IMG/VR virus record: IMGVR_UViG_3300018877_000004
Span: 1-64,000 of that record
From: a virus
Direction: 5' to 3' (one strand)
Length of the DNA: 64,000 nt
The position numbers were made by a program, and so were the translations under genes. The notes beneath the pieces were generated by a model. That model ran no database searches, was not told the origin of the DNA, and was given only the letters and a program-made list of their open reading frames with translations. Positions 2,901-51,438 of the stretch are shown one piece after another. Positions within the stretch are counted from its first letter, which is position 1. Each line of letters begins with the position of its first letter.

Positions 2901-4510
2901 TTTACCCCATCAATACCGCACTGAGGCACAAAGACGGTTTAACCTATCAAGTCGTTGCCGCCAACCCAATTGAGGCTACGTTAAATCACGAAGACGGGAA
3001 AACCTGTATTTCAAGGCGACTCACCTGGAAAGAGATCGATCGAGACTTTCACGGCCCTACTGAATCGTCTCTGGACGAATACACACGGTTTCTTGAGTCA
3101 AAACAAGTCACATTTCAGCCCAAAGGTTTTGAAGTTCCCCTAGAAGACTTAAACCCGCCTCTATTTGGAGAAAAGCATCAGTTTCAACCGCGCATCATCC
3201 AATGGGCGCTCAAGTTAGGATGCGCTGCAATCTTTGCTCAGTACGGACTTGGTAAAACCATCATTCAGGTGAAATGGGCAGAGCAAGTTGCAAAGCACAC
3301 TCTAGGCAAGGTGCTGCTGCTAGCCCCGCTTGCGGTTGCTCCTCAAACCGTCAAAGAAGCCGATCGCTTTGGCGTGACGATCGCTTACTGCCGCAATCAA
3401 GCCGAGGCAGATGAGTCAGGCGAAAAGCTAATCGTCACAAATTACGAAATGCTCAAGCATTTTGACCCCAGTCAATATGTCGGCATTGTTTTAGATGAAT
3501 CCAGTGTGTTGAAGCAGTATCGAGGCAAGACGAAGGAACTGCTGTGTAATTCCTTCAAAGACACACCCTATCGACTTTGTTGCTCTGCAACGCCCGCTCC
3601 GAATGACTGGCTAGAGCTGGGAAATCATGCTGAGTTTCTAGGCGTGGCGACCTCTCACCTGATGATTTCTCGCTGGTTTCAGAATGACACCATGCAAGCT
3701 GGAGCCTACAAACTCCGACCCCACGCTGCAAGTGACTTTTGGCAGTGGGTTGCAAGTTGGGCAGTCTGCCTCACTATGCCTTCTGATTTGGGCTTCTCTG
3801 ATGACGGCTGGAAGCTGCCACCGCTAAATATCCATTCTCACGTTATCCCGGTCGATCATACCGAAACATGGGGAGAAGCAAATCGAGACGGCCAGCTACA
3901 GCTTGTTCGCACTCCGAGCCTTAGCGCGACCAATACACACAAAGAAGCACGGCTCAATTGCGATCGAATTGCCGACAAAATCGCGGATTTAGTGCAGGCA
4001 GAGGCACTTGAGGCTTGGGTGCTGTGGTGCTTTACGAACTACGAGTCTGATGCACTGAAAAGTGCCCTTCCAGAGGCGATCGAGCTGCGAGGGGATGAGA
4101 AATCGTCAGTCAAACAAGAAAAGCTTGCAGCTTTCACGAATGGCGAAATTAAAAAGCTAATTACCAAGCCGGAGATTGCAGGGCTGGGATTGAACTGGCA
4201 GCACTGCCAACACCAAGCCTTCATGATGGGCACGTCCTACAGTTTTGAACTGTTTCATCAAGCGCTGCATCGTCTTTACCGATTCGGACAAAAGCGTCCT
4301 GTCGAAACTCACCTAGTCTTTCCTGAGACAGCCGGAGGAGTAAGGCAGGTAATCTCTCGCAAGCAGCGGCAGTTTGAGGCGATGCAATTAGCACTCCGAA
4401 ACGCCGTCAGGTTATCGCAGCTTGCCGCCCATCAGCAGCAGGTACACGACGACTACATTCCGCAAGTTCAAATGATTCTTCCCGACTGGTTGAGGAGTAA
4501 ATCGGCATGA
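2897..4510 (+). CDS. SNF2-like superfamily 2 helicase
   Basis: This 537-residue protein has SF2 ATPase motifs in order: motif I QYGLGKTI at about residues 115-121, a DExx box VLDESS at about 198-203, motif III CCSATPAP near 228, and motif VI HRLYRFGQKRP near 458-468. The last two have the pattern of SNF2 translocases. Stand-alone SNF2-like enzymes are common in phage early regions, where they act on duplex DNA in replication or repair. It overlaps the genes on both sides by 4 nt, placing it in one transcription unit with the methyltransferase. Confidence 0.88.
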   Translation: MIYPINTALRHKDGLTYQVVAANPIEATLNHEDGKTCISRRLTWKEIDRDFHGPTESSLDEYTRFLESKQVTFQPKGFEVPLEDLNPPLFGEKHQFQPRIIQWALKLGCAAIFAQYGLGKTIIQVKWAEQVAKHTLGKVLLLAPLAVAPQTVKEADRFGVTIAYCRNQAEADESGEKLIVTNYEMLKHFDPSQYVGIVLDESSVLKQYRGKTKELLCNSFKDTPYRLCCSATPAPNDWLELGNHAEFLGVATSHLMISRWFQNDTMQAGAYKLRPHAASDFWQWVASWAVCLTMPSDLGFSDDGWKLPPLNIHSHVIPVDHTETWGEANRDGQLQLVRTPSLSATNTHKEARLNCDRIADKIADLVQAEALEAWVLWCFTNYESDALKSALPEAIELRGDEKSSVKQEKLAAFTNGEIKKLITKPEIAGLGLNWQHCQHQAFMMGTSYSFELFHQALHRLYRFGQKRPVETHLVFPETAGGVRQVISRKQRQFEAMQLALRNAVRLSQLAAHQQQVHDDYIPQVQMILPDWLRSKSA

Positions 4511-5460
4511 GAATTTTAGATCAGCATATTGGAAGCGATTTCAGTCTTTATCACGGCGATTGCGTTGAAGTTGTCAAAGGCCTGCCTGACAACTCGATCG
4601 ACCTAACAATCACCTCTCCTCCGTTTTGCAACCTGTATACCTACAGCCCATCTCCTCGCGATATGGGCAACACGGCCGACGATCAGCATTTCTTTGAGAA
4701 CTTTGAATTTCTAGTTCCCGAATTACTGCGAGTCACAACACCCGGACGGCTGTGTGTAATTCACTGCAAAGATCTGCCGCTTTATATGGGCAGTAATGGA
4801 GTCGCAGGATTGCGTGACTTTCCTGGTGAAATTGTGCGCTGTTTCAACTCGCACGGCTGGACATTTCACAGCCGCGTCACCATCTGGAAGTGCCCAAAAA
4901 CCGAGATGGAGCGCACCAACAATCACGGACTACTGCACAGCCAATTGTGCAAAGACTCTTCAGTTTCTCGTCAAGGCATGGCTGACTATCTGCTTGTGTT
5001 CCGCAAGTGGTCAGAAGGGATGAATGGCTTGAACTCTGCCAAGCCTGTTACGCGAGGAACTTATCGATTTGATTCTTACACTGGCGAACAACCTCCATTG
5101 ATTACGCCGCAGCAAGACGATCGCGGTTACTCGATCGAGGTTTGGCGCAAATATGCAAGTCCGGTCTGGTTCGATATTCGACAAACCAATGTGTTAAATA
5201 CTGCGGCTGCGAAAGAAGGAGATGAGCCGCATATCTGCCCACTCCAACTTGATGTGATTGAGCGCTGCATTGAACTCTGGAGCAACCCAGATGATGTAGT
5301 TCTAGATCCCTTCAACGGAATCGGCAGCACTGGAGTTATGAGCTTGAAGATGAGGCGCAAGTATGTCGGCGTGGAGCTAAAGCAGTCCTACTGGAAAACT
5401 TCGGTGAAAAATCTTCAGTCGGCAGGCGAAACCGAGCAAATCAAACTACTAACCGCCTAG
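4507..5460 (+). CDS. DNA methyltransferase with TSPPF motif
   Basis: The catalytic motif IV reads TSPPF at about residue 36, and the SAM-binding motif I reads DPFNGIGSTG near residue 268. Motif IV before motif I is the beta-class order. An S-P-P-F/Y catalytic motif is most typical of N4-cytosine enzymes, but some adenine enzymes have it too, so the modified base is open. No restriction nuclease is next to it. Inferred role: protecting phage DNA from host restriction, or marking replicated DNA. Confidence 0.85.
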   Translation: MRILDQHIGSDFSLYHGDCVEVVKGLPDNSIDLTITSPPFCNLYTYSPSPRDMGNTADDQHFFENFEFLVPELLRVTTPGRLCVIHCKDLPLYMGSNGVAGLRDFPGEIVRCFNSHGWTFHSRVTIWKCPKTEMERTNNHGLLHSQLCKDSSVSRQGMADYLLVFRKWSEGMNGLNSAKPVTRGTYRFDSYTGEQPPLITPQQDDRGYSIEVWRKYASPVWFDIRQTNVLNTAAAKEGDEPHICPLQLDVIERCIELWSNPDDVVLDPFNGIGSTGVMSLKMRRKYVGVELKQSYWKTSVKNLQSAGETEQIKLLTA

Positions 5461-5495
5461 CCAAAGAAAAGCAAAATCAACCTACCAGTAAACCA

Positions 5496-6221
5496 ATGCC
5501 GCAGATTAGCCCTTACTTCCAGACTGACGCCATTACGCTCTATCACGCTAACTGCATAGACGCAATGAAAGGCATGGACGATCGATCGGTCGATTTAGTC
5601 CTCACCGATCCACCCTACTCAGAGAAAACTCATGCAGGCGCTCGATCGTGTGCAACGCAAACGGCGAACAGAAAACCACATGACGCTAAAAAAGCAATTG
5701 ACTTTTCATCAATTAGTGAGAGCGATTTTGCGACCTGTTTTGACGAAATAGGCCGAGTAGCAAAACGCTGGGTGATTGCAACGATCGACTGGCGATACAT
5801 GCACCTGCTTGAAGAAGCTCCGCCTCAAAACCTGCGCTTTGTCCGCTTTGGCATTTTCGATAAACCCAATGGCGCACCCCAATTCACAGGCGATCGGCCT
5901 GGTACAGGATGGGAAGCGATCGCAATGCTGCATCGCACCGACGCAAAACTGCGATGGAATGGCGGCGGCAAGAGAAGCGTGTACAGACACAACATCGACA
6001 GCAGCGGCATTCACCCCACCGCTAAGCCTCTATCGCTCTATAGCGAGTTAATTCAACTGTTCAGCGACCCCAATGACGTTGTATTCGATCCTTTTGCTGG
6101 ATCAGGTGCAAGTCTGCGGGCAGCGGCAGATTTAGGCCGCAGAGCGATCGGGGTTGAGTTGTCGCCTCAATACATCGAAGTGGCAGCAAGGCGCTGTCAA
6201 CAGTTGGCGCTGTTTTCCTAG
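5496..6221 (+). CDS. DNA adenine methyltransferase (DPPY) with C-terminal clamp motif
   Basis: Motif IV DPPY lies at about residues 36-39 and motif I DPFAGSG near 198, again in beta-class order; DPPY is typical of N6-adenine methylases. The protein ends QQLALFS. QLALF matches the consensus by which bacterial proteins dock on the replication sliding clamp, suggesting methylation behind the fork. The target sequence cannot be read from the gene; HIP1 sites contain GATC and CGATCG, which makes them an obvious candidate. Confidence 0.85.
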   Translation: MPQISPYFQTDAITLYHANCIDAMKGMDDRSVDLVLTDPPYSEKTHAGARSCATQTANRKPHDAKKAIDFSSISESDFATCFDEIGRVAKRWVIATIDWRYMHLLEEAPPQNLRFVRFGIFDKPNGAPQFTGDRPGTGWEAIAMLHRTDAKLRWNGGGKRSVYRHNIDSSGIHPTAKPLSLYSELIQLFSDPNDVVFDPFAGSGASLRAAADLGRRAIGVELSPQYIEVAARRCQQLALFS

Positions 6222-6232
6222 CCAAAGAAAAA

Positions 6233-6249
6233 GCGGGCACTCAGCCCGC
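6233..6249 (+). other. GC-rich hairpin between methyltransferase and sigma gene
   Basis: GCGGGC-ACTCA-GCCCGC forms a 6-bp stem with a 5-nt loop 28 nt before the sigma factor ATG. No T tract follows, so it is more likely an mRNA stability or translation element than a terminator. Confidence 0.45.
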
Positions 6250-6276
6250 CCCATGTAATCGCAGAAAAAACTTGCA

Positions 6277-7152
6277 ATGCCAAACTATAACGCAAAATTT
6301 ACAGAACAACAGAAACCCGATCGATTACGGCATCGACTGCTGAGCAGATCAGAAGAGAGAGCCTTACTAAGGCTGGCACAAAAAGGCGATCGTCGTGCTG
6401 TTGCCCTGCTTGTCGAATGCAATCAAAAGTTTGTTGCCCGTATCGCCAGTCGCTATCAGACCCAGGGCAAGCATCTGTCGTTCGATGATTTGATGCAAGA
6501 AGGATCGTTAGGGCTAATTCGTGCGATCGAAAAGTTCGATCTCAGCCAAAACACTCGCTTGCTTACCTACGCCAAGTTGTGGATAAACCAAAAGCTGCAA
6601 CGGGCGATCGCCAAGCAGCAGTACACCATCCGTCAACCTTTCGACACTCGCTACCTGCAATGGCAAATCCAGCAGTTAGCACCTCAACTGCAAGAACAGG
6701 GCTTGCCCGTCACAGTGCAGAACCTCGCAAAACGCTTGCAGGTGCAGGAGAAGCACGTTAAGCGGGCGATCGACCTAAAAGCAATTGATTGTTCGATCAG
6801 CATCGATTGCTTGGATGGCGGCATTCCTGGGCCTGCTCTGCCAGTTGAGGACGATTTCGATCGCGCTGTGATGATTGACCGGATTGAGCGGGCGATCGTG
6901 AATTGCTCCACTGATGACTGTGTGCGGCAAATGGTGCGGATGCGGATCGGACTCGCGACGGGTGAGCCGATGGGATTTCGTGAAATCGCTAGTCGCCTAA
7001 ATCGCAGTGTGTCTTGGGCAAATGCCGCATACGTGCGGGCGCTGAAACGAATACAGCCCCAGATTGAGGATTTGCGCGAAGGACGAGAACACATCAAGGG
7101 GAGGCATTTGACGCCCTGCCGCGATCGTAGCCGTGTACAGGAGGTAGCTTAA
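6277..7152 (+). CDS. sigma-70 family RNA polymerase sigma factor (early module)
   Basis: Region 2 is clear at about residues 35-110: LVECNQKFVARIASRY, then LSFDDLMQEGSLGLIRAIEKFD and a core ending TYAKLWINQKL. A region 3-like helical block follows (LPVTVQNLAKRLQVQ). Region 4 with its helix-turn-helix lies at about 215-275 (MGFREIASRLNRSVSWANAAYVRAL). It therefore has the parts needed for both -10 and -35 recognition. The inferred role is redirecting host RNA polymerase to phage promoters. Confidence 0.88.
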   Translation: MPNYNAKFTEQQKPDRLRHRLLSRSEERALLRLAQKGDRRAVALLVECNQKFVARIASRYQTQGKHLSFDDLMQEGSLGLIRAIEKFDLSQNTRLLTYAKLWINQKLQRAIAKQQYTIRQPFDTRYLQWQIQQLAPQLQEQGLPVTVQNLAKRLQVQEKHVKRAIDLKAIDCSISIDCLDGGIPGPALPVEDDFDRAVMIDRIERAIVNCSTDDCVRQMVRMRIGLATGEPMGFREIASRLNRSVSWANAAYVRALKRIQPQIEDLREGREHIKGRHLTPCRDRSRVQEVA

Positions 7153-7154
7153 TC

Positions 7155-8102
7155 ATGCCAACTGCTGAAGACTTAAACCACGCTTGGAATCGTTGCCGCT
7201 TTGACTGCTCTACGTTCCATCCGCTTAGCACTGTTGTGCATGAGCCTTGCTGCTTGTGCCTAGCTTTTAGGCAGCAAAAGCAGCTATACATAGCTCACGC
7301 CATCGTCAAAACAACCACGCTAAACGGTAGCTGGAGCGATCGCTATCTGTGCCGCTCCTGCTATCTGTTGATCTGCGATCGGATAGGTCAAGACCCCGAC
7401 TTCAAGCAAGAACCCCGCGTTAAAGGCGAGGAAAAGAAACCCGTCAGACAGGGGACATGCCGCAGCCTAGTGATGGAATTGATCGCTATGGCTGACGGGG
7501 GAACGATCGATTCTCTAAAAGAAGAAGCGATGCGGCAAGACATTGAACTGCCGCCCAATTTCGATATTGTTGTTCGTCAGCTAGCAAATGAAGGCAGGCT
7601 TGCCCGTAGTCGATGCACCAGAACCAGGCGCGTCGTTTATTCACCAACTCCAGAGGGCTTGCAGTTTATTGAATTCAAGCTGCTGACTAAAACCGAGCAG
7701 GTACGGCGCTTAGTCGATCTATCAGGCGGTGGGTTGAATCTAAAAGAATTAACCGATCGCTTTGGTGCAGAGTTTGAGGAAGTAAAAAGCACTGTTTTTG
7801 ACTGCACTCGCAGCGCCAGTTTGATCGCGGTCAAGAATCAAGGCACTTACCGCTTCTACACCAAAGAACAGTGGCAAGCGTTACTAACACCTGACGAACA
7901 AAAGATTGAGCAGGCGTTGTTTGTGCTGCGCGCTAAGCGCCAACCCTTTACAGTTGCCGCTGTTGCTGATTTCGCTGGACTACCTGAAAGCATGATTACT
8001 AACAATCCGCTGCTGCGATCGCGTGTTCAGCAGGTGGTCGATTGGGCTTACCGCAGAGAGTTAAGAGCTTTGAAACAGGAGAACAAACGCTATGCAAGCT
8101 GA
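7155..8102 (+). CDS. zinc-finger and winged-helix-like protein
   Basis: The N-terminus carries CCLCLAF followed ~30 residues later by LCRSCYLLIC, a probable four-cysteine zinc site. At least two winged-helix-like units follow, including FDIVVRQLANEGRLARSRC ending RRVVYSPTPEG, and LNLKELTDRFGAEFEEVKST ending GTYRFYT. It starts 3 nt after the sigma gene stop. It is likely a DNA-binding regulator or a partner of the sigma factor; no named family was recognised. Confidence 0.7.
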   Translation: MPTAEDLNHAWNRCRFDCSTFHPLSTVVHEPCCLCLAFRQQKQLYIAHAIVKTTTLNGSWSDRYLCRSCYLLICDRIGQDPDFKQEPRVKGEEKKPVRQGTCRSLVMELIAMADGGTIDSLKEEAMRQDIELPPNFDIVVRQLANEGRLARSRCTRTRRVVYSPTPEGLQFIEFKLLTKTEQVRRLVDLSGGGLNLKELTDRFGAEFEEVKSTVFDCTRSASLIAVKNQGTYRFYTKEQWQALLTPDEQKIEQALFVLRAKRQPFTVAAVADFAGLPESMITNNPLLRSRVQQVVDWAYRRELRALKQENKRYAS

Positions 8103-11003: not shown

Positions 11004-11345
11004 ATGCAAGCCAAAGTCTACAGCCTAGATCAGCATCGAAAGTTGCGCGATAGCATCCCACGCCAGCACCGCCCAGCGATCGCACCTCTGCCCCATCATC
11101 AGCGGGGCGATCGAGTGGTAGCCCCGCTGATGATGGGGCAGCTTAGTTTATTCGCGCCACATCCCACAGCGCTAGGACGGGGAACGTTTACTCAGCCAAA
11201 ACAACACCTACATCAAACACAAAAAGGTTCTAACAATGGCTATCTACAGCTTCAACAAAGACATGTTTCCTTCGCTGCTGGCTCAAGATCTCGTCCCTGG
11301 CTACAACTCGATCGGATTTGCAGATCTCTCGTCTGTCGAATCTGA
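11004..11345 (+). CDS. possible basic protein with clamp-binding motif
   Basis: A frame from ATG 11004 reads MQAKVYSLDQHRKLRDS and contains GQLSLF, a match to the sliding-clamp binding consensus. The frame is basic and low in complexity. It contains a 21-bp perfect inverted repeat and runs 110 nt into the well-supported gene at 11236. Either the N-terminal part is real and the end is loosely constrained, or the region is a structured leader. It is listed because of the motif. Confidence 0.4.
   Translation: MQAKVYSLDQHRKLRDSIPRQHRPAIAPLPHHQRGDRVVAPLMMGQLSLFAPHPTALGRGTFTQPKQHLHQTQKGSNNGYLQLQQRHVSFAAGSRSRPWLQLDRICRSLVCRI
11088..11141. repeat. 21-bp perfect inverted repeat
   Basis: The left arm at 11088-11108 (CTGCCCCATCATC, then AGCGGGGC) and the right arm at 11121-11141 are exact reverse complements around a 12-nt loop. 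It would form a very stable hairpin. No T tract follows, so it is not a standard terminator. It lies 95 nt before the SSB-like gene. Confidence 0.85.
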
Positions 11346-13980: not shown

Positions 13981-16836
13981 ATGACTCAAGGATATCGAAG
14001 CGGCAAAAATAGCCCCTGTCCAATCTGCGACAGAACCAAAGATTTTGATTGTGCAGTTGATTACACGAAGGAAGGAGTTAAAAAGGTTCGCTGTCACACC
14101 TTCATCGATCGCGATGCTGAGGTCGCTGGATTCATTTATCGAGGTGCAACAGACTGCGGCACATGGGGCCTGTATTTTGAAGCGACCGATCGCGATAAGA
14201 AGGAGGTTCGATCGCGTTCTAGAACTGAGTATATCTACACTGCACCCAATGAAAGCGGCGATCAAGTTCCAGTTGTCAAAGTCACCCGCAGTGATGACGG
14301 CGGCGGCAAGAAGAGTGTCTTTCAGTCGAGTCTTGTTGGCGGTGAGTGGAAGAACACGCTAACCGCAGGCACTTATCCACACATCCATCTGTATCGCATC
14401 TTTGACCCCATCAACCAACGCGCCAAAGCTGAGGGAAGCCCGATCGTCATTGTCGAAGGTGAAGGCAAAGCCGATTTGCTGCTCTCAATGGGCATTGCTG
14501 CCACAACTTCGATCGGCGGTGCAGGCAAATGGCAGCGATACGGACATCAGAACTACCTACGAGATCTTGAAGGTGCAGAGATTGTCTTGTGTCCCGATCG
14601 CGACCTTCCCGGCGTCAAACATATGCGGGAAATTGCAGCAGAGACAGGCGCAACAAAGTGGATCTACTCCTATCCTGACTCGCCATTGTGGGCAAAGCTG
14701 CCAGAAAAAGGCGGGGTTGATATTGCCGACTGGGTGGCAGATTACAGGCTGAGTGCAGAACAGATTCTAGGGGCGATCGAGCTTGAACGGAAAACCGAGG
14801 CGCAGAAGGATAGCGCTGAAGTTAATGCTGCTGTTGACGATCAGCCGACGCTGCCACCTGAGCTTGATCCTGCCGACGAGGTGACGATCAGCACGATTGA
14901 CAATCACATCTATTGCCGACTCTTTGGAGCGGGTCGAGGCGATTACATCACAGTCAACGATACGTTCTACTGCTACACACAGCGCGGCTACTGGGTTAGA
15001 CAAGACGATCGCAAGGTTTATAAGCTAATTGGACATCAGTGCCGCAAAGCCTACAAAGTGCGGCGCGATGCGAAAGGCTTGGCTCGTGAGGTTACTTACC
15101 CATTTGCCAAAGATGGCTCGATGAAATCGGCGTTCAATTTCAGCCGTAGCCTGCTCGATCACACGTCAGACTTGCCCTACAACAACCACTTGATGTGTTT
15201 TCAGAATGGTGTGGTAGACGCAAGAACGGGAGAATTGCAGCCACACGATCGGGCGCATTTTTTGACTAGTGCCATTACCACTTCCTACGTTAAGGGCGCA
15301 CAGTGTCCAGAGGTATTCCGATCGTTTGTTGCCTCAGCGTTTGGTGAGGACTTGCTAGAGGTTATTCAGGCTGTAACCTCAATGCTGCTTGATCCGACCG
15401 CCCATTATGGTCGTTTCATTCACCTGCTAGGTCAATCTGGCAGCGGCAAAGGAACGATGCTGAGATTGTGGCTCGAAATGTTCGGGACTGAAAACACCCG
15501 ATCGATCAACTCATTTTCTGAGCTTGAAACGGCTGAAGGTAGACATCATCACCTAACTGGAGTGCGTGTCTGCGCTCTGCCTGATGTTGGCGGCTTCATG
15601 AAAGGCTTAAAAGCTTTTTATGAGCTTGTGGATAACGGCCCGATGTCAGGCAGGGCGTTGTATTCACCGAATGCTTACCAGGCACAGTGGTACACCCGTT
15701 TTATTGTCGCCTCGGTTGATCACTTGCAGATTGAGAACTCTGGCGACGGATGGGATCGGCGTGTCATTTTGCTGCCAACCAAGCCGCGATCGGGTGCAAT
15801 CAATCCGCGCTTATCAGACGAACTTTCAGCGGTTAAAGGCGAAATTGTTTCGTGGGCGCTGTCAATGTCTCGTGAGCGGCGCGATCGAGTTCTTGCCAGT
15901 CTTGGCATGTATGAGCGCATTGAAACTGCGATGGCTGACGCCAGCATCAGCGGCGATCCGGTTCGTTATTTCGTTGACTTGTGCTTGAGGCCATCTGCTC
16001 CGTCAGAAACAAGCGCTCCGATTCAAAATCACATGCTGCACACCTGGTACGAAGCATTTTGCTTGGTGCATGGCTATCAGCGCATGAGCATGAGCCGCTT
16101 TGTGTCTCATCTCAAAACAATTTTGCCATCGCAATTTCAGCCTCGCAGACGCGCTGTAGTTGCTCATCATCCCGATCGCCCTTGGGTTCCTGCTCATTGG
16201 ATTGGCTTGAAGCCTCTTGCAACAGTGTTTGAGTCAACAGAAGAAGGCATGGTGAGATGTATAAAAGCTGACTGCGTAGAAGGAGGCTTGGCGGCATTCG
16301 TTCACGCCAACAATCAAAACGGTATCACCGTGAACAGTACACAAAGTACAGGGTCAAATTCAGAAGTACACTTTTCACCGTCGCCTGAAACCCTTGCACA
16401 GCAAGAGAGTACACGAAGTACAGGAAGTACAGGGTCTTTTGACTCTGTAGAAAAAAGTTGTGATTTTGAGGTTGTTTTGCTCGATCAGAGGCAAGACAAG
16501 CAAGAAATCATAAATATAAATAGAAATCTCCCAGAGAACCCTGTACATCCTGTACATCCTGTACCCGTAAGCCCAGAGCGGCTTTCAGGCGACAGCAAAA
16601 AGTGTACTTCTGAATTTGACCCTGTACTTTCCCAAAGTGCCTGTACTGTTCGCCATGAACATTTCCAAATTGGCGATCACGTTGGCGTGACGGGTGAGCA
16701 AACGCACGGCGAAATTACCACCTTTTATCCAGACGGACGTGCGTGTGTGGAATGGCTTGCAAATGGCAAGCGTCACACGCAGATACAGCCGATCGATCGT
16801 CTGCATCGATTGAGTAAACAGCAGGCAATTGAATAA
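13981..16836 (+). CDS. primase-helicase (zinc finger, TOPRIM, D5-like helicase)
   Basis: The 951-residue protein has a zinc-finger-like start (CPICDRTK, later RCHT). A TOPRIM fold follows, with VIVEGEGKADLLLSMG near residue 155 and LCPDRDLPG near 203. The hexameric-helicase ATPase has Walker A GQSGSGKGT near residues 484-491, as in D5/phage P4 alpha proteins. A low-complexity linker at ~785-888 (STRSTGSTGS and PVHPVHPVPV) is encoded by a large quasi-palindrome. The last ~50 residues (FQIGDHVGVTG to VEWLANG) look KOW-like. It should prime and unwind at the phage origin. Confidence 0.87.
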   Translation: MTQGYRSGKNSPCPICDRTKDFDCAVDYTKEGVKKVRCHTFIDRDAEVAGFIYRGATDCGTWGLYFEATDRDKKEVRSRSRTEYIYTAPNESGDQVPVVKVTRSDDGGGKKSVFQSSLVGGEWKNTLTAGTYPHIHLYRIFDPINQRAKAEGSPIVIVEGEGKADLLLSMGIAATTSIGGAGKWQRYGHQNYLRDLEGAEIVLCPDRDLPGVKHMREIAAETGATKWIYSYPDSPLWAKLPEKGGVDIADWVADYRLSAEQILGAIELERKTEAQKDSAEVNAAVDDQPTLPPELDPADEVTISTIDNHIYCRLFGAGRGDYITVNDTFYCYTQRGYWVRQDDRKVYKLIGHQCRKAYKVRRDAKGLAREVTYPFAKDGSMKSAFNFSRSLLDHTSDLPYNNHLMCFQNGVVDARTGELQPHDRAHFLTSAITTSYVKGAQCPEVFRSFVASAFGEDLLEVIQAVTSMLLDPTAHYGRFIHLLGQSGSGKGTMLRLWLEMFGTENTRSINSFSELETAEGRHHHLTGVRVCALPDVGGFMKGLKAFYELVDNGPMSGRALYSPNAYQAQWYTRFIVASVDHLQIENSGDGWDRRVILLPTKPRSGAINPRLSDELSAVKGEIVSWALSMSRERRDRVLASLGMYERIETAMADASISGDPVRYFVDLCLRPSAPSETSAPIQNHMLHTWYEAFCLVHGYQRMSMSRFVSHLKTILPSQFQPRRRAVVAHHPDRPWVPAHWIGLKPLATVFESTEEGMVRCIKADCVEGGLAAFVHANNQNGITVNSTQSTGSNSEVHFSPSPETLAQQESTRSTGSTGSFDSVEKSCDFEVVLLDQRQDKQEIININRNLPENPVHPVHPVPVSPERLSGDSKKCTSEFDPVLSQSACTVRHEHFQIGDHVGVTGEQTHGEITTFYPDGRACVEWLANGKRHTQIQPIDRLHRLSKQQAIE
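16337..16646. repeat. ~300-bp quasi-palindrome with GTAC iterons, candidate replication origin
   Basis: Twelve GTAC tetramers occur, at 16337, 16346, 16366, 16409, 16418, 16427, 16543, 16552, 16561, 16604, 16624 and 16643. Arms pair in register about position 16486.5: a perfect 33-bp block (16343-16375 with 16598-16630), an 11-bp block (16380-16390 with 16583-16593) and a 27-bp block with 24 matches (16409-16435 with 16538-16564). Three triplets or pairs are spaced exactly 9 bp. The centre is AT-rich (ATAAATATAAATAG near 16510). Iterons inside the initiator gene recall the lambda origin inside gene O. Confidence 0.7.
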
Positions 16837-16874
16837 TTGATTCGAGAATGTCAACCAAACAAGAGGACAACATC

Positions 16875-17699
16875 ATGAATTTGCATTCTGCTTCCGTTCC
16901 AACCTGGCAAGAAATTAAAGAAAACCATTATTACTTTTCTCAAAAATTTCTTGACGAACATAAAAAGCGAAACGGTTTTGTCCCTGTAGAGCCTGGTTTT
17001 ATTTATTTGATTGAAGCTGTTGGCTCTCAGTTTTACAAAATTGGCAAAAGCATTCATCCAGACAAGCGTATTTTGCAAATTTCTCCCAAAATGCCGTTTG
17101 AAACTCGTTTGCTTTGCGTTCGCAGATCGAATTTTATGAGCATCGCAGAAAAGATGCTTCATGCAAAGCTTCAAGATTGCCGAACTAACGGAGAGTGGTT
17201 TGAACTAGACGACACACTTTTGTGCTACTTGACAATGGATTCTACCTCGATGCAAATTCGATATGCCTATGTGGAATCTATTTTTCAGATGTTTTTTGAA
17301 TCGCAAGGTGTGAGCGGACTCCGTTCAATTTTCAAAAAATATCCATTATTTCTCGATTCAGAAGATCATGGGGATTTGTCAATTTTCATGATTGAATCCT
17401 GGATGCGTTCAATCGATGAAACAGTTAAAACGGCAACTACTTTTGACCTGAAAGGACTTGAATATTATTCGACCAATCCCGAATGGGACAAGGTGCTTAA
17501 GTGCATTGAAAACCGTTTGGCGTTTTGCGCTTTTCGATCATTCGGCCATTTGATTTCTCTTGATGATTCCGAATGTCGAGTGGGAACGCAAACAGAAGCA
17601 GATTTCCGGATGTTGCGATCGTATTTTCCCGATATTGAAAAAGCGTTGATTCGACTGAAAAGTAGACCAATCGCAGTCACTTTGGAGGTTGTTTCATGA
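16875..17699 (+). CDS. GIY-YIG family nuclease, T5orf172/MUG113 type
   Basis: After ~45 residues the protein reads GFIYLIEAVGSQFYKIGKS, then RILQISPKMPFETRLLCVR and an ending EKMLHAKLQDCRTNGEWFEL. That is the T5orf172 branch of GIY-YIG domains, common as stand-alone phage nucleases. The remaining ~170 residues are unrecognised. The ATG at 16875 follows AAGAGGACA and is preferred over 16848. The gene is visibly richer in A+T and poorer in HIP1 cores than its neighbours, suggesting recent arrival. Confidence 0.78.
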   Translation: MNLHSASVPTWQEIKENHYYFSQKFLDEHKKRNGFVPVEPGFIYLIEAVGSQFYKIGKSIHPDKRILQISPKMPFETRLLCVRRSNFMSIAEKMLHAKLQDCRTNGEWFELDDTLLCYLTMDSTSMQIRYAYVESIFQMFFESQGVSGLRSIFKKYPLFLDSEDHGDLSIFMIESWMRSIDETVKTATTFDLKGLEYYSTNPEWDKVLKCIENRLAFCAFRSFGHLISLDDSECRVGTQTEADFRMLRSYFPDIEKALIRLKSRPIAVTLEVVS

Positions 17700-19600: not shown

Positions 19601-19783
19601 ATGGCTAAACAAACAGAATCTGCGGCACAAATTTTTCTGCGCACTGCCAGCAATTATCAGCAGCATGGTACGTGCTACCCAGAGCGATTGCATTTACTCG
19701 ACAAGCTCAAGAAGCACGTAGAAAACCAGTACCCAGAAGACGACAGACTGAAAGCGATCATTGATGAATTGAAGGCGTGTTAA
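19601..19783 (+). CDS. hypothetical protein (60 aa)
   Basis: The ATG at 19601 is ~10 nt after AAGGAG. The protein is helical (AAQIFLRTASNYQQHGTCYP). It is the last rightward gene here and overlaps the integrase gene tail-to-tail by 4 nt. Confidence 0.65.
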   Translation: MAKQTESAAQIFLRTASNYQQHGTCYPERLHLLDKLKKHVENQYPEDDRLKAIIDELKAC

Positions 19784-21192
19784 ACCCTCATATCGATCGA
19801 TTGGATCACCCCATCGATAATCACAACCTTGTTAATGAAGCGCCTAAAAAGCTGCTGCCTGTCTCTGGCATTTAAGTCAGTCCAGAATCCGGGGTCAGTT
19901 CCTACACTCGCGAACAGAGTTCTGACCCCTAAATCTATACTTCCATTTTGGTTGTTTAGTGCTTGCGCTTGAGCCTTAAGCCTGACAAGTTTTTGGTTTA
20001 ACAATCCGTCCTCATCTCCCATTTCACCGATCATTGCCTCGATCTGCTGTATCTGCCGCAAAAGCTTTAATACTTGTGGATTGGGCGCAGCTTCTTCTGC
20101 ATCTAAGTCGACTGCTGCTGCTTCTGCAATTTCTGCCGATCGCTGGCATAACGCCAAAATCACTGCCTGCTCAATGAGGTCGATCGATACTCCCTTTCCA
20201 GGTGCGTTGTAGCAGGGAAGGCTGGCAATTTTGCGACTGCGGCTGCGGCAATAAGCGTAATGATAATATTTGTCCTGCTTGACACTGTGACTGCGGGAGA
20301 TGCCCATTCGATAGCCACAGCGCCCACAGACCAGCAGAGACGAAAGAGCATAGACAAACCGCTGCTGATTGCTTCCCGTCCGGTATGCAGCCTTAGTGCT
20401 GCCCATCATGTGCCGAATCCCGTCTTGATCTGCGTCAGTCAGCAGGCGATCGTCTGGGTGGGTGTTGTAGGCAATGCGCCCCCATTCCCCATAGTTTTTG
20501 CTGCTGATGTTCTGGTATGGCGTATGACCGCACAGTACCGGACTCATGACCCATCGCCCCAAGCCAGCAGGTGTCCAGCGCTTGCCTAGTTCTGTATCGA
20601 TCTGGCGACACGCTTCTGCCATGTTTCCACCGCAGGAACGAATGATCTCGATCGCTCTAGCTGCTGGGATGCTCAAATCCAATCGATACCGCTCGTCTTG
20701 CCGCAAGTATCCCCACGGTGCGCCCGGATTTGCTTTTTGCTGATGGCGAAAATACTCAAAGCCGTCTCGAATTCGCTTCGAGAGCATTCTGACTTCGCCT
20801 TCTGACTGGACACCCGCAATCATGAATTGCTCCCATTCTGTCGGGTTGGCAAAGTCTACGGCGCGACCTTTGAGGATTTCCCACAGTTCGATCCCAGACT
20901 GTTCAAACATCTTGGCAAGCCGTGCATTCATTTCTGCATGGCGCGTAATTCGATCGCAACGGTCAATCACCAAGCGATCAATTTGGCGTGGGCTGAACAG
21001 CGCCAACAGCTTCTCAAAGTCGGGACGATCGTCTTTGCGCCCGCTCTGGACATCAACAAACAGTAGGTTATTGTCTGGTTCGATGCCGAAGCTTCGCACC
21101 TGCCGATCGAGCCGAAACAGTTGCCGCTCTAGGGCTGAGGAGTCGCGTGATTGCTCTTTTCTAGAAACTCTTGCGTATCGTGCAACACGCAT
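19780..21192 (-). CDS. large serine recombinase (phage integrase/XisF-like)
   Basis: The N-terminal resolvase fold has RVARYARVSRKEQSRDSSALERQ, with the catalytic serine in the first strand-loop (RVSRKEQS), and later IDRLVIDRCDRITRH. The recombinase domain (NPGAPWGYLRQDERY, then WTPAGLGRWVMSPVLCG), a zinc-ribbon (LLVCGRCGYRMG with a later CYNAPG) and a coiled-coil follow. That is the layout of large serine integrases. The start at MRVARY is preferred. It is the enzyme expected to integrate or excise the element. Cyanobacterial XisF is in the same class, but identity cannot be claimed. Confidence 0.9.
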   Translation of the reverse strand: MRVARYARVSRKEQSRDSSALERQLFRLDRQVRSFGIEPDNNLLFVDVQSGRKDDRPDFEKLLALFSPRQIDRLVIDRCDRITRHAEMNARLAKMFEQSGIELWEILKGRAVDFANPTEWEQFMIAGVQSEGEVRMLSKRIRDGFEYFRHQQKANPGAPWGYLRQDERYRLDLSIPAARAIEIIRSCGGNMAEACRQIDTELGKRWTPAGLGRWVMSPVLCGHTPYQNISSKNYGEWGRIAYNTHPDDRLLTDADQDGIRHMMGSTKAAYRTGSNQQRFVYALSSLLVCGRCGYRMGISRSHSVKQDKYYHYAYCRSRSRKIASLPCYNAPGKGVSIDLIEQAVILALCQRSAEIAEAAAVDLDAEEAAPNPQVLKLLRQIQQIEAMIGEMGDEDGLLNQKLVRLKAQAQALNNQNGSIDLGVRTLFASVGTDPGFWTDLNARDRQQLFRRFINKVVIIDGVIQSIDMRV

Positions 21193-21309
21193 GATCACCA
21201 CCGATAATTTTTAGCTAAATTATATTGCCTTTAGGCCAATTAATTAGGCTAAAATAAGGCATATCAAGGGTTTCAGTGATTGCTCTTAGTGTCGCAAGTA
21301 GCACCATCT
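21193..21309. promoter_or_regulatory. divergent integrase/HNH promoter region, possible attP
   Basis: An AT-rich intergenic region holds a perfect leftward TATAAT (21219-21224 on the minus strand) for the integrase and a rightward TAAAAT (21250-21255). Between them lies a near-palindrome around AATTAATT (TTTAGGCC to GGCTAAA). Serine-integrase attP sites often lie next to the gene, so this is a candidate region, but no core could be proven. Confidence 0.45.
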
Positions 21310-46303: not shown

Positions 46304-46493
46304 CACCAAGCCTCATAATAATTAGGGATATTGGGCGATCGTCCGCACTGTACTCGATGATTTCTGCTCTGGTTGCCGTCGCCTTGGTAGCAGGTAGCCC
46401 GTCTGCGCCTTCATACCGGACGATCGCATACTTCCCGCCATTGGGTAGCGGATCTTTTTCGGTTGCTTCAATCCGTTCGGTGGTGTCATCCAT
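46248..46493 (-). CDS. hypothetical head-tail connector-region protein (81 aa)
   Basis: An acidic N-terminus and beta strand (GGKYAIVRYEGADGLPATK) with an acidic tail. Overlaps the MuF gene's stop and the tail terminator-like start. Function unknown. Confidence 0.5.
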   Translation of the reverse strand: MDDTTERIEATEKDPLPNGGKYAIVRYEGADGLPATKATATRAEIIEYSADDRPISLIIMRLGDGRGGSDRTEDSDRDSAE

Positions 46494-49400
46494 TCGGGTT
46501 GCCTGCGTTCTCGATGTCTTTCAGAATTCGTCTGCGTCTTGCTTCCAGTCGATCGACTGCAATCCCTCGCTTTTGTCCGCGTTCTCTTGCTTCAATTCGC
46601 TTTTGAATTTCTAAATTAACTTCTGATAGTTCACCCTGAAGTGCTGCTAATCGTGCGATTTGGGCTTGCGCCCGATCGACCTCACCCTGTCGTCTGCGCA
46701 GGCGATCGTCTTCTTCTGCCGTCACTCTTGCCGCAACGTCAATCTGAGGGATCTGCAAGAATTCTCGCAACTGCTGATTGTATTGCTCTAGCTGCGATCG
46801 CAAGTCTGTCACGCTCAGGGCGCGACCATCCACCTCATAAATTAGCGCTGCCCCTTGATCGCGTTCACTACGCTGCTGGAGTGCCGTGGCAATGGCAAGC
46901 GCATCTTCAATCTCACGAGCGATCGCTGCTTTGGTCTGTGCTGTTTCCTCAGCAAAGCCATCACGAGCGCGTCGGTACAGTTCAGACTGATCAATGATTT
47001 GGCGCGGGTCAACATTCTCATCAGTTAGAAGCAGGTTGGCAAAGTCTTGGTTGAACTCTGCCAAATCTTCGATCAACTGATTGCCCGATCGCGCTACATC
47101 GATCGCTCGAATCCGCTCTGGCGTCTTCAAAAGCTGTTGAATCTGGCGATCGCTTAACCTGCCCTCATCCGCCAACTCATCGCGCAACTGCTGCCACTGA
47201 GCGATTTGGGCAGCGGCTTGAGCGGTCGTAGCCTGTGCAAGCTGATCCGGGTAGTCAAGCTGCTTTTGAATCGACTGGATGCGCCCGTTTACCTGTCCGA
47301 CTAGCTTTGCTACTTCGTTGGCGGCAGACTGTAAGCGCTCGTTTGGCGTCTTCCCCGGCTGGCGCTCCAAGACGATCGCCAAATCTGAAGGCATCGCCCC
47401 TTCTTCCCAGTTGCGACTATCCAGCAGCCACGCGACTGATCCGGGACGGAGAGAGGCAAGGATCTGTAGGTTGGTGCGAACGGTTTCGACATCGCGGCTA
47501 ACGATCGCTTGCAGGTTGTTAATCGCTGATTGCCGCTGAGTGCTGTAGTTGTCGGATAGCTGCTGTGTGGTGTTAGCACGAACCGCAAGCTGTGAACTCA
47601 ATTCAGCGCGTAACTGTCGATACTGCTCAACCCGTTGCGGTAGCTTGCCTTGAGCGTTGCGGGTGCGCCTAATTGCACTGTATCGATCGCGCTGTTCTGT
47701 GGTTAAATCCTGAGTTTTGGTAGGCAGTCCATTCAGGCGTTGCAGCAGATCGTCTAGTTTGTCACGACTAGAATCGAGTCGCGCTGTCAAAATCTCCAGT
47801 GATTCTGCCGCCTGCGATACTTGTCGAATGCGCGGTTCTAAATCTTGGCGGTGCAAGTCTGTCACGCCCACGCCTGTAGACTGTGAGTTCACTGCTGCCC
47901 GCAATCGCTGCAAATCTCGCAACGCCTGCGATTTTTCACTCGATCGCGGCAAGTCCAGTAACTCTTTTTCTGCGGCTTCTAAATCCTGCTTTAAGCCTGT
48001 GATCGATCGTTCTACATCCCGCCGTTCTCCCTCTGTCTGCAAGGATTCGCGGCGAGTGCTGAGGTCGTTTAATGTCCGCTGTAATTCTGCGCTGTTGGTT
48101 CGCAGCTTCATTGCGGTCTGCTCAATGTTCTCGATCGCCTGTAGCTGCTTTGACGCTTGCTTGAGTTGCGCCTTAGCCGCTCGAATCTGCTGCGGTACGG
48201 TCGAGAAGTAGGGCGGATTGAGTGGATTAAGTAGCTGTGCCGCCCGCTGCTCGATCGCTTCGATTTGCGCTTCGACTCGGTTGATCGCCTCCTCTTGGAT
48301 GCGAATTTCCTGAGACGCTTGTTCCTGCTGCACCGCTGTGCGTGGCAAATCCACTCGATCGAGTGCCTGCTGAATTTTCTTGGTGCTGCGTTGCGCTGTC
48401 GCGAGTTCGTTAGCCTGCTCTCGCTGGGTGCGAATACGATCGGCAAGTGTGGCGTTGGCACTGCGCAAGTTTTCAACAATTTGCGGGCTGCGTGTATCCG
48501 GTTGTTGTGGCTCAGCGGATTGAGGTTGAAGGACACCTTTGCGAGGATGGCGATAGTCAAAGATGCGGGCGATCGCTTCGTAGCGGGCGGGCGCAAATTT
48601 CTTTAGATAGTCAGGATTTAAGAAGAACTCTTTCACCGATTCAGCAAAGTCGCGATCGGGTCGGTTCTGATACGCCATGCGCGTCTCTTGCATGGCACGG
48701 GCGTATTCAGAGCGCTCAGGTGGCGTCAGTTGTCCAAACTGCTGATACGCCCTCAGATAGCCAGCTTGCAGCAGCAGATCGTCAATCTTGGCACGTCCTC
48801 CGTAGAGCACGATCGCCCCTTCGTCGAAGGTGACCATGCCATTGACTTTAGGCGTGTTCAGCTTCAGCTTTTTGCGCCAATACTGCTCTGAAGCGTTGCG
48901 CTGTCGAGTGATATAAATGTCGCCACTGCCAAGCGCATTCTCAGGCAAGTCAAGTTCTGCCACCTTGCGCAATAGGTCAAGGGTGGGGCTGTTTTCTCCT
49001 AGTTTGGGGACGTACCAATCGACGCCCTTAAATCGAAAACGATCGAACTGTTCAGCGTCTTTTGCGCCTGGCGGTGTTGCTTCTGCTGTCTCGATCGTGC
49101 CTTGCAACTGCTCGAAAACTGCCTTGCGATAGGCTGCACCTTTCGCCTGTGCAGGCATATCCTGTCGCTTGATTTCATCGATCGCTTGCCGCAGTCGAAA
49201 CTCTGCCAGTCGTGAGGCTCCCCGATCAATCGATCGGGCTTGTTTGTAGAGGTTCCGGGCGATCTTCGTCTCTAGTGCCTGTCGTTCAACGGGTGTCAAT
49301 GGCGCAAGCTCTACGCCTGCTGGCAGCGCCAATCGCGGTAGCTCACCCCGCAGTAGTCCTTTAACGGGTTGTGCTTCAGGTAGTGCCAGCAATGGCTCAT

Positions 49401-51438
49401 ATCCTGGTAGTGCTTTTGGTTCTGCTAGCCCCGGCAAGGCTTTCGGATCAGCGCGTCCGGGCAGTAATCCGGCAGCGTTACGGGCAGCAAGAACCTTTTG
49501 CGCGATCGCAGGGGGAAGCAATCGAATCTCGTCAGCACTCAGCAACAGCAGTTGCGGGATCAGTTCGTCAATCTGCCGTGCTAGTACATCGTCGTCAATG
49601 GTTCGCTCGGTCTTGACAGGTTCAGCCGCTTCGCTCGATCGTTCTTTGCGTGGAATGTCTGTCTTCAGAAATTCTTTGATCGTGGCGACGAATTCCTCAT
49701 CAGGCAAGTACTGCTCTAATGAGTGGTTTTTGACATTGGCAAGTGGAACGCGATTGAGGGCGCTAAGCTGTGCCCACGGATCACCTGTGCCAGCGATCGT
49801 GATGCCCTGCTCTGGCGACATTTCATTGAAGCCGAAATAAGGCGACCCGATCGCAATCACCTTGGCAGTGATGCCCATCTCCTTAAGGATCTCTGCTGCC
49901 TCGAATGCCGTTGCACCGCCCGCGCTGTAGCCGATGATGTTGATCGGCTTGTCAGGATACTTTTGATGAAAAGCATAGGCTTGCGCTGCAACCCTCACGG
50001 ATGCCATGTTGCGCCCTTCAACGATCGCAGTCGAAAGGAACTTCGAGAAGATCTGGCTTACCTTGCGAGGTGTGGGCGCACCGCCCGGATCTTCTACATC
50101 GAATTCGGGAGTGCGTACCCCAATGACGCGATGCTTGGGCAATACGACTTTTTGAAAGTAGTTCGCTAGATAAATGCCTTGCCCGCCCTGCTCACCTGAA
50201 AAACCACCCACGACAAACGTCACCTGCTCATCGTTTTCGCTGGGGTCAGCTTCTACCCCTTTGCGAAACTTTTGCGACAGTTCTTGCGCCATTGTTGCCG
50301 ATCGCTTAAACCCTTTGCGATAGCGCGATCGGGCGAGATAGTAGCTGCCGACTGTCGTACCTGCGACCGCTGCCCCAACCGTGAGCGCAATTAGTAGATC
50401 GTTGTTGACCTGCTCTTGTGGAGTCTGCCGACGCGATCGATCTGTGAGCAGTTGCGCTGCTAGTTTTCCGACTGCCCATTGTTCGCCCTTAACCTGCACT
50501 GAGCGATCGAGGTAGCCATCGACAGGCGTCCAAACTGGCTTAGGTGGCGAGATATTTGCAGCACGTTCAAAGGGCGCAACATTGCCAGCGGATTGATCTG
50601 TTGTTGTCGCTTTGACTTTTTCAGCGTGTTGCTTAACCCACTCGTTCGCTTTAGGGTCAGACGCCTCCTGTTCAAGGAAGTATGGCGAATTAAAACAACG
50701 ATCGCGCGGATGAATTACAGCAGGCGCAGCATCCACTGGGTAAACGTTGCCAGCACGATCGGCGCAGAATTTGCAGACCCTACGATCTTGCGTGGCGATT
50801 CTTTGGACATATTGAATCCCGTATTCCTTGTATCTCGATCGAGTGGCTGAGTCTTGCGCCGAAATGATCTCAGTTCGTGCGATCGTCTCTGCTTTGCCTT
50901 TTGTTACACCTAGTCGCTGCCGCAGAAATCCAGCAACTTTTTGCGCCCCCTGCCCTTGAATTAGACCCTGAGTGATAATTACTGACGCTTCTTCACGGAA
51001 GGTCTGATCGTGCTTCTTGAGGCGATCTACTGCATCCCTAGCCGCAAATGCAGCAGCTTCGATCGGTACAGTTGCAGTTGCCTTGATAAAGCTGTCGCCC
51101 TGCTCAAGTGCTACCAACTCATCGCCTAGCGTCGTCCCCTCTTTCGAGGCAGTTGATAGCAACTTTTCATAGCGATCGCGCAACTCCTGCTCACGATCGG
51201 GGTCAATTAATATCAGTTGCGCTTGCAGATCGTTGACCAGAAGAACGCCTCGCTGAGTCGCTAGCAAGTCTGGTTTTGATTTTGCGGTGTAGTTCGGATA
51301 CCTGCGCAATAAATCAGCTTCGAGCCGTCGATAGGAAGCGTCTAGGGCTGCATAAAGTCGATCGACTTCCGCATCTTCCATGTCTTGAAGAGTGCGATCG
51401 GTTCTTTCGATTAATTGTGCTGCCGCTTCGCCGCTCAC
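46486..51438 (-). CDS. giant MuF/SPP1 gp7-like minor head protein fused to hydrolase and degenerate zincin-like domains
   Basis: A 1650-residue protein. Residues ~180-255 form the MuF/gp7 head domain (RTEIISAQDSATRSRYKEYG, CKFC at 222-225, HPRDRC ending at 248). A hydrophobic segment lies at ~347-368. Residues ~405-590 resemble an alpha/beta hydrolase: GFSG, nucleophile elbow GYSAGG with Ser505, Asp553 in GTGDP, His572 in NHSLEQY. Residues ~835-960 resemble a zincin toxin domain (GAIVLYGG, then DRDFAESVKEFFLNPDYL) whose expected HExxH reads QAGYL. The rest is coiled coil. It fits the MuF family of phage-encoded polymorphic proteins. Confidence 0.75.
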   Translation of the reverse strand: MSGEAAAQLIERTDRTLQDMEDAEVDRLYAALDASYRRLEADLLRRYPNYTAKSKPDLLATQRGVLLVNDLQAQLILIDPDREQELRDRYEKLLSTASKEGTTLGDELVALEQGDSFIKATATVPIEAAAFAARDAVDRLKKHDQTFREEASVIITQGLIQGQGAQKVAGFLRQRLGVTKGKAETIARTEIISAQDSATRSRYKEYGIQYVQRIATQDRRVCKFCADRAGNVYPVDAAPAVIHPRDRCFNSPYFLEQEASDPKANEWVKQHAEKVKATTTDQSAGNVAPFERAANISPPKPVWTPVDGYLDRSVQVKGEQWAVGKLAAQLLTDRSRRQTPQEQVNNDLLIALTVGAAVAGTTVGSYYLARSRYRKGFKRSATMAQELSQKFRKGVEADPSENDEQVTFVVGGFSGEQGGQGIYLANYFQKVVLPKHRVIGVRTPEFDVEDPGGAPTPRKVSQIFSKFLSTAIVEGRNMASVRVAAQAYAFHQKYPDKPINIIGYSAGGATAFEAAEILKEMGITAKVIAIGSPYFGFNEMSPEQGITIAGTGDPWAQLSALNRVPLANVKNHSLEQYLPDEEFVATIKEFLKTDIPRKERSSEAAEPVKTERTIDDDVLARQIDELIPQLLLLSADEIRLLPPAIAQKVLAARNAAGLLPGRADPKALPGLAEPKALPGYEPLLALPEAQPVKGLLRGELPRLALPAGVELAPLTPVERQALETKIARNLYKQARSIDRGASRLAEFRLRQAIDEIKRQDMPAQAKGAAYRKAVFEQLQGTIETAEATPPGAKDAEQFDRFRFKGVDWYVPKLGENSPTLDLLRKVAELDLPENALGSGDIYITRQRNASEQYWRKKLKLNTPKVNGMVTFDEGAIVLYGGRAKIDDLLLQAGYLRAYQQFGQLTPPERSEYARAMQETRMAYQNRPDRDFAESVKEFFLNPDYLKKFAPARYEAIARIFDYRHPRKGVLQPQSAEPQQPDTRSPQIVENLRSANATLADRIRTQREQANELATAQRSTKKIQQALDRVDLPRTAVQQEQASQEIRIQEEAINRVEAQIEAIEQRAAQLLNPLNPPYFSTVPQQIRAAKAQLKQASKQLQAIENIEQTAMKLRTNSAELQRTLNDLSTRRESLQTEGERRDVERSITGLKQDLEAAEKELLDLPRSSEKSQALRDLQRLRAAVNSQSTGVGVTDLHRQDLEPRIRQVSQAAESLEILTARLDSSRDKLDDLLQRLNGLPTKTQDLTTEQRDRYSAIRRTRNAQGKLPQRVEQYRQLRAELSSQLAVRANTTQQLSDNYSTQRQSAINNLQAIVSRDVETVRTNLQILASLRPGSVAWLLDSRNWEEGAMPSDLAIVLERQPGKTPNERLQSAANEVAKLVGQVNGRIQSIQKQLDYPDQLAQATTAQAAAQIAQWQQLRDELADEGRLSDRQIQQLLKTPERIRAIDVARSGNQLIEDLAEFNQDFANLLLTDENVDPRQIIDQSELYRRARDGFAEETAQTKAAIAREIEDALAIATALQQRSERDQGAALIYEVDGRALSVTDLRSQLEQYNQQLREFLQIPQIDVAARVTAEEDDRLRRRQGEVDRAQAQIARLAALQGELSEVNLEIQKRIEARERGQKRGIAVDRLEARRRRILKDIENAGNPNG

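Follow-up and report, generated by a model that had tools for sequence, protein, structure and literature searches.

IMGVR_UViG_3300018877_000004 is an IMG/VR virus record of 69,499 bases, of which positions 1-64000 (64,000 nucleotides, here called the window) were analyzed. The virus is a tailed phage with genes for terminase, portal, major head and tape-measure proteins. HIP1-like GCGATCGC sites, together with relatives that occur almost solely in cyanobacteria, point to a cyanobacterial host. A large serine recombinase gene on the minus strand (19780-21201) matches phage integrases, a possible sign of a temperate phage. At 4507-7152, two N6/N4 DNA methylase genes precede a sigma-70 region 2 gene of the phage sigma factor family, and the 1650-aa protein encoded at 46486-51438 combines a minor head protein domain with a region weakly similar to an SbcC subunit. 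A terminator-like inverted repeat of 21 bp (90%, 7-nt loop) lies at 2539-2587, before the gene at 2897. At 11088-11141 lies the second strongest palindrome of the window, an inverted repeat of two perfectly matching 21-bp arms around a 12-nt loop.

The gene described here (13981-16836, plus strand) encodes a D5/P4-type primase-helicase of 951 amino acids and encloses a mirrored array of short repeats (iterons). The D5_N domain (residues 321-455, 14941-15345, plus strand, Pfam E = 2.6e-16) is situated just before an SF3-type helicase core, and a Walker A-like motif near residues 484-491 is invariant. The Pox_D5/winged-helix-like domain (residues 659-723, 15955-16149, plus strand, Pfam E = 1.6e-4) is modelled with high pLDDT and is the candidate iteron-binding domain. 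Both D5_N and Pox_D5 score above the Pfam gathering score, and the combination of D5_N, SF3/AAA+ helicase core and C-terminal Pox_D5/winged-helix is that of P4/D5-type initiators; the match to TIGR01613 lies under its curated cut-off. Residues 783-909 (16327-16707, plus strand), which contain the array, are predicted to form a disordered linker (AlphaFold2 pLDDT <50), followed by a small C-terminal beta domain (residues 910-947, 16708-16821, plus strand) with strands modelled at a pLDDT of about 70. A T5orf172/MUG113 (GIY-YIG-type) gene (16848-17699) directly follows the initiator gene on its 3' side.

The sole significant solved relative by sequence is PDB 7OLA/7OM0 (E = 6e-5, helicase region as query against the PDB), with a phmmer alignment to 7OLA that extends from the helicase core into the winged-helix (Pox_D5) region. 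A profile search of the PDB with the gappy alignment A1 gave no match, whereas the single helicase region did. The best fold match of the model is again 7OLA, 'Structure of Primase-Helicase in SaPI5' (E = 3.6e-15), and the predicted fold of the initiator is thus SaPI5-like.

The whole array, a candidate replication origin, occupies 16337-16647. Its arms match in register about an axis at 16486.5, where 84 of 130 positions pair, compared to a window mean of 32.3 (sd 5.1); this axis ranks first among about 127,000 in the window, with the runner-up at 56. Two arm pairs share it, 16343-16393/16580-16630 (51 nt, 92%) and 16409-16435/16538-16564 (27 nt, 24/27 matching). Within them, 16343-16375 (33 bp) and 16380-16390 (11 bp) pair without any mismatch, and all details of the quasi-palindrome described in the sequence-only reading were reproduced on recomputation. 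A third pair of arms, 16325-16341/16642-16658, is centred on 16491.5, 5 bp off the main axis, so that the outermost iteron copies are offset. The inverted-repeat score of the array is 112, against 13.7 +/- 2.5 for a codon-shuffle null, and no other 400-bp stretch of the window scores above 38.

Twelve GTAC sites lie within 16337-16646, while elsewhere in the window there are at most four per 310 bp. The repeated unit, AAGTACAGG, comprises more than GTAC alone. The left outer iterons (16337-16371; GTAC at 16337, 16346 and 16366) are followed by a box, CTGAAACCC (16385-16393, plus strand), which is common to homologues, and by three left inner iterons (16408-16433; GTAC at 16409, 16418 and 16427). 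The AT-rich, non-palindromic centre (16436-16537) is the candidate melting site. On its other side lie three inverted right inner iterons (16540-16565; GTAC at 16543, 16552 and 16561), the inverted box copy (16580-16588, minus strand, where it reads CTGAAAGCC) and the inverted right outer iterons (16602-16647; GTAC at 16604, 16624 and 16643). These site positions bear out the recurrence of a 9-bp spacing in three places, namely 16337/16346 and both inner sets. The AT-richness noticed for the centre is likewise real: it is 65% AT compared to 52% in the arms, and 0.4% of the 80-bp segments of the gene are equally AT-rich.

Protein searches found homologues on cyanobacterial plasmids, at 48 loci in cyanobacterial genomes and on one more phage contig. 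Protein scans without an alignment gave no homologues, a direct similarity search of the array DNA against plasmids and phages returned chance matches only, and IMG/VR scans for further phage homologues yielded only this contig (L063, 107.6 kb). Its primase gene (4001-6591) is split over several frames, probably by sequencing indels; it has a weak array at most, with a possible GGGCACA array after the gene.

At each locus the stretch downstream of a conserved C-x-K...C-x-EGG motif was scored. Palindromes with z >4 occur at 37 of 57 loci (the window included) and in 2 of 161 upstream control segments, the loci being not independent since they include 25 near-identical Nostoc copies. Clustering at 75% identity resulted in 26 clusters, of which 12 show a strong palindrome; in about five others (L005, L010, L030/L039, L037 and L053) iterons are present but the palindrome is weaker or displaced, and about nine have none. 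Relatives with the gene and no palindrome, named beforehand as evidence against an origin, therefore do exist, as no array is seen in about a third of the clusters, whose loci are in some cases chromosomal or fragmentary, but many others carry it.

In the clear cases the arrays are 282-365 bp long, lie at the same place in the gene and have the layout ++-++, AT-rich centre, --+--. Each half consists of two outer iterons, usually one further iteron in inverted orientation, often the CTGAAACCC box, and two or three inner iterons; a non-palindromic, AT-rich centre of 102-144 bp separates it from its mirror image. At most 2% of the 80-bp segments of the gene are as AT-rich as the centre in nine of ten elements, and 6% in the tenth. 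The iterons are uniform within an element, where 8-15 copies share one sequence, and differ between elements. Their form is mostly NNN(A/T)CAGG, with GTACAGG in the phage, TGGACAGG on the Nostoc plasmids, and GTCACAGG, TGCACAGG, GGCACAGG, GTTACAGG, GGATCAGGG, TCTCAGGG, CACTCTAGG and others in further homologues. Of the GTAC symmetry expected in the linkers of related genomes, the symmetry recurs, whereas GTAC itself is replaced by other iterons. Since homologue arrays occur without GTAC, a role of GTAC as a restriction or methylation motif, considered in view of the two N6/N4 methylase genes, was rejected. No association of iteron type with the winged-helix domain beyond overall relatedness was found in a partial Mantel test of low power (r = 0.04, p = 0.38, n = 19).

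Between the two arms of an array the iterons match at about 90-100%, but the spacers at only 52-63% in most elements; clearly higher spacer identity is seen only in the phage (76%), L010 (78%) and L044 (67%). Conserved iterons with diverged spacers look like protein sites, as a hairpin would constrain the spacers too. The array transcript is nevertheless predicted to fold very stably (-162 kcal/mol, z = -15.5), and a regulatory hairpin in the mRNA of the primase-helicase, acting on translation, decay or termination, was considered. Mirrored iterons pair of necessity, and their co-variation between arms proceeds by motif replacement, a pattern that fits DNA sites too. Such a hairpin is an improbable explanation, with spacers unpaired in most homologues, 8-15 copies that all share one sequence, a uniformity that pairing does not call for, no Rfam match for the array, and an array kept in noncoding DNA by one plasmid homologue.

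This homologue is L010, a 17.5-kb Nostoc plasmid. Its gene has no array; a very strong mirrored one with the layout ++-++, --+--, the iteron TGTCTCAGGG and a centre of 76% AT lies in the downstream noncoding DNA (6636-7033 of the locus), which makes the architecture independent of being coding sequence. A second set, of TGTACAAGAGGGT-like direct repeats, is found at 7516-7849. Where the array is coding, selection acts on the DNA. Among 24 Nostoc homologues, differences at fourfold-degenerate sites amount to 0.9% in the iterons, compared to 9.2% in codons of the helicase and 12.9% in the remaining array sequence, the synonymous sites of the iterons being about ten-fold more conserved than those of the helicase. 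Amino-acid differences are 13.5% in the iterons versus 2.6% in the helicase, and the constraint is thus on the nucleotides more than on the peptide. The linker had been described as of low complexity and under weak protein constraint, in agreement with its predicted disorder, and the DNA can carry an origin signal because a disordered linker would tolerate almost any peptide.

A plain fold-back (inverted) duplication, or a low-complexity protein repeat, with no DNA function is hardly credible against these data. The 33-bp exact block takes in spacer sequence, which indicates that the phage arms were recently alike; yet the two arms encode different peptides (STRSTGSTGS and PVHPVHPVPV), homologues have arrays with other iterons at the same place, the synonymous sites of the iterons are conserved, and the L010 array is outside coding DNA. 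Neither fold-back duplication nor an RNA hairpin alone, the two alternatives of the sequence-only reading, accounts for a concerted replacement of iterons with diverged spacers.

Iterons often serve control besides initiation, and those described here could be sites for a partition centromere, for incompatibility or copy-number control, or for autoregulation, and not the start point of replication. GC skew, proposed as a check and computed for the window and eight whole plasmids, showed nothing consistent at the array and so offers no independent pointer to an origin, although it is expected to be uninformative in cyanobacteria according to a Nostoc genome paper (PMC5987646). The array is located at the 3' end of the gene, away from the promoter, several of the plasmids have separate par genes, and melting would require just such an AT-rich centre flanked by mirrored sets; a role of this other kind is accordingly judged unlikely.

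Among known systems, the origin of phage lambda also has iterons and an AT-rich stretch nested in an initiator gene, O. Lambda O is not a helicase, and its four direct iterons lie on one side of the AT-rich part, in contrast to the two mirrored sets of the phage array. P4 alpha is a P4-family primase-helicase that binds iterons (ori/crr type I), as proposed for the phage protein, but the P4 sites are outside the alpha gene. P4 alpha and its cognate site are named in PMC6092414. The telomere phages N15 and PY54 have repA replicons with a P4-type multidomain initiator, like the phage gene. According to PMC10612081, which cites Ziegelin 2005, repA alone is a circular minimal replicon, which would place the origin within or next to repA; that text does not describe the N15/PY54 origin. 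CyRepA and CyRepX of Synechocystis are cyanobacterial plasmid replication proteins with helicase-like domains, studied, unlike the phage array, for RNA-based control upstream of the gene (PMC10899382); the words 'repeat' and 'palindrom' are absent from the text of PMC10899382.

The closest resemblance is to the phage-inducible chromosomal islands (PICI). Their origins comprise two iteron sets around an AT-rich region just 3' of rep (PMC6092414), and the C-terminal domain of SaPI Rep helicases recognizes iterons directly downstream of the gene (PMC7581432). The PICI/SaPI rep-ori systems (SaPI5, SaPIbov1, EcCICFT073) share with the phage a D5_N/P4-type initiator, with 7OLA as the best solved match, and iterons that are particular to each element and sit at the 3' end of the gene for the initiator (PMC6092414, PMC7581432). 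Unlike in PICI, the array lies within the coding sequence of a disordered linker (16337-16647 inside 13981-16836), a downstream position being found only in the L010 homologue; each arm mirrors the other and has an inverted iteron inside it, besides the CTGAAACCC box; and the carriers are cyanobacterial plasmids and a full phage, which encodes the terminase, portal, major head and tape-measure proteins itself and is not a satellite. The most fitting description of the array is by analogy, as a site that would work in the manner of PICI-type origins, without being classed as a member of that type because its location and its non-satellite context differ. The best explanation is a PICI-like origin variant nested in the initiator coding sequence, PICI origins themselves being already known.

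We conclude with considerable confidence that the phage has its replication origin in this array, within the 3' portion of the gene for its initiator, which presumably binds it. The earlier proposal of symmetric iterons flanking an AT-rich centre for a D5-type helicase gains support from an architecture, position and centre that recur while iterons and protein change, and it is further backed by the synonymous conservation, the noncoding array of L010 and the SaPI5-like initiator model. One gene would then most likely both encode the initiator and hold its DNA landing site. The primase-helicase would bind both mirrored iteron sets, most likely via its C-terminal winged-helix (Pox_D5) region, facing helicase rings would assemble on the two sides of the centre, and melting of the AT-rich centre would start bidirectional replication. 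Iteron sequences would shift in concert within an element and give each element a private origin; the two arms may be kept uniform by template switching or gene conversion, through which inverted copies would correct one another.

Inverted iteron arrays are also present at the 3' ends of the genes for DUF3987 (L066, L068, L070, L071) and VapE-like (L067, L069) primase-helicases of cyanobacterial plasmids, with helicase domains assigned by Pfam for L066, L069, L070 and L071 and by annotation for L067 and L068. Each of the six has its own iteron (AAAGTAGAC, AGTGTAAT, AAGTGTCGC, AGTCCACA, TAGAACAG, GTGGAACA), and the inverted-repeat z is 4.5-12.7 in five of the six and 2.9 in L070. Their likeness to the phage array suggests that these too may be origins, and inverted arrays at DUF3987/VapE 3' ends are possibly a general replicon design. 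In a 7-kb Microcystis plasmid (L013), a mostly direct AGGTGAC array (6772-6973) follows the DUF3987 gene, and a CATCTAA array (1350-1722) lies elsewhere.

Candidate enzymes for a site-specific recombination or nuclease target are encoded near the phage array, namely the serine integrase and the T5orf172/GIY-YIG protein, and the plasmid pCRI9333.06 also has a recombinase gene after its DUF3987 gene. On other plasmids, though, the arrays adjoin other neighbors, and 8-15 iterated copies with an AT-rich centre differ from a single dyad, which leaves such a target very unlikely. Whether the D5-type, DUF3987 and VapE-type initiators of cyanobacterial plasmids and phages share one general design, undescribed in the open-licence literature, is in our estimate evenly balanced: an element-specific mirrored origin within the coding sequence of the initiator, towards its 3' end, with iterons replaced in concert in a fixed architecture, would give each replicon a private origin and a basis of compatibility between the numerous plasmids that share a cell.

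In filamentous cyanobacteria numerous plasmids coexist; few of their origins have been mapped, and GC skew fails there. If the interpretation as a nested origin is true, origins could be read from the sequence inside the rep gene for dozens of plasmids and phages, compatibility groups could be predicted from the iteron type, and parts for vectors would be supplied. A layout described as unique to phage-inducible islands would then also hold for plasmids and a full phage, and the array would clearly exemplify selection at the DNA level running through a stretch that encodes disordered protein.
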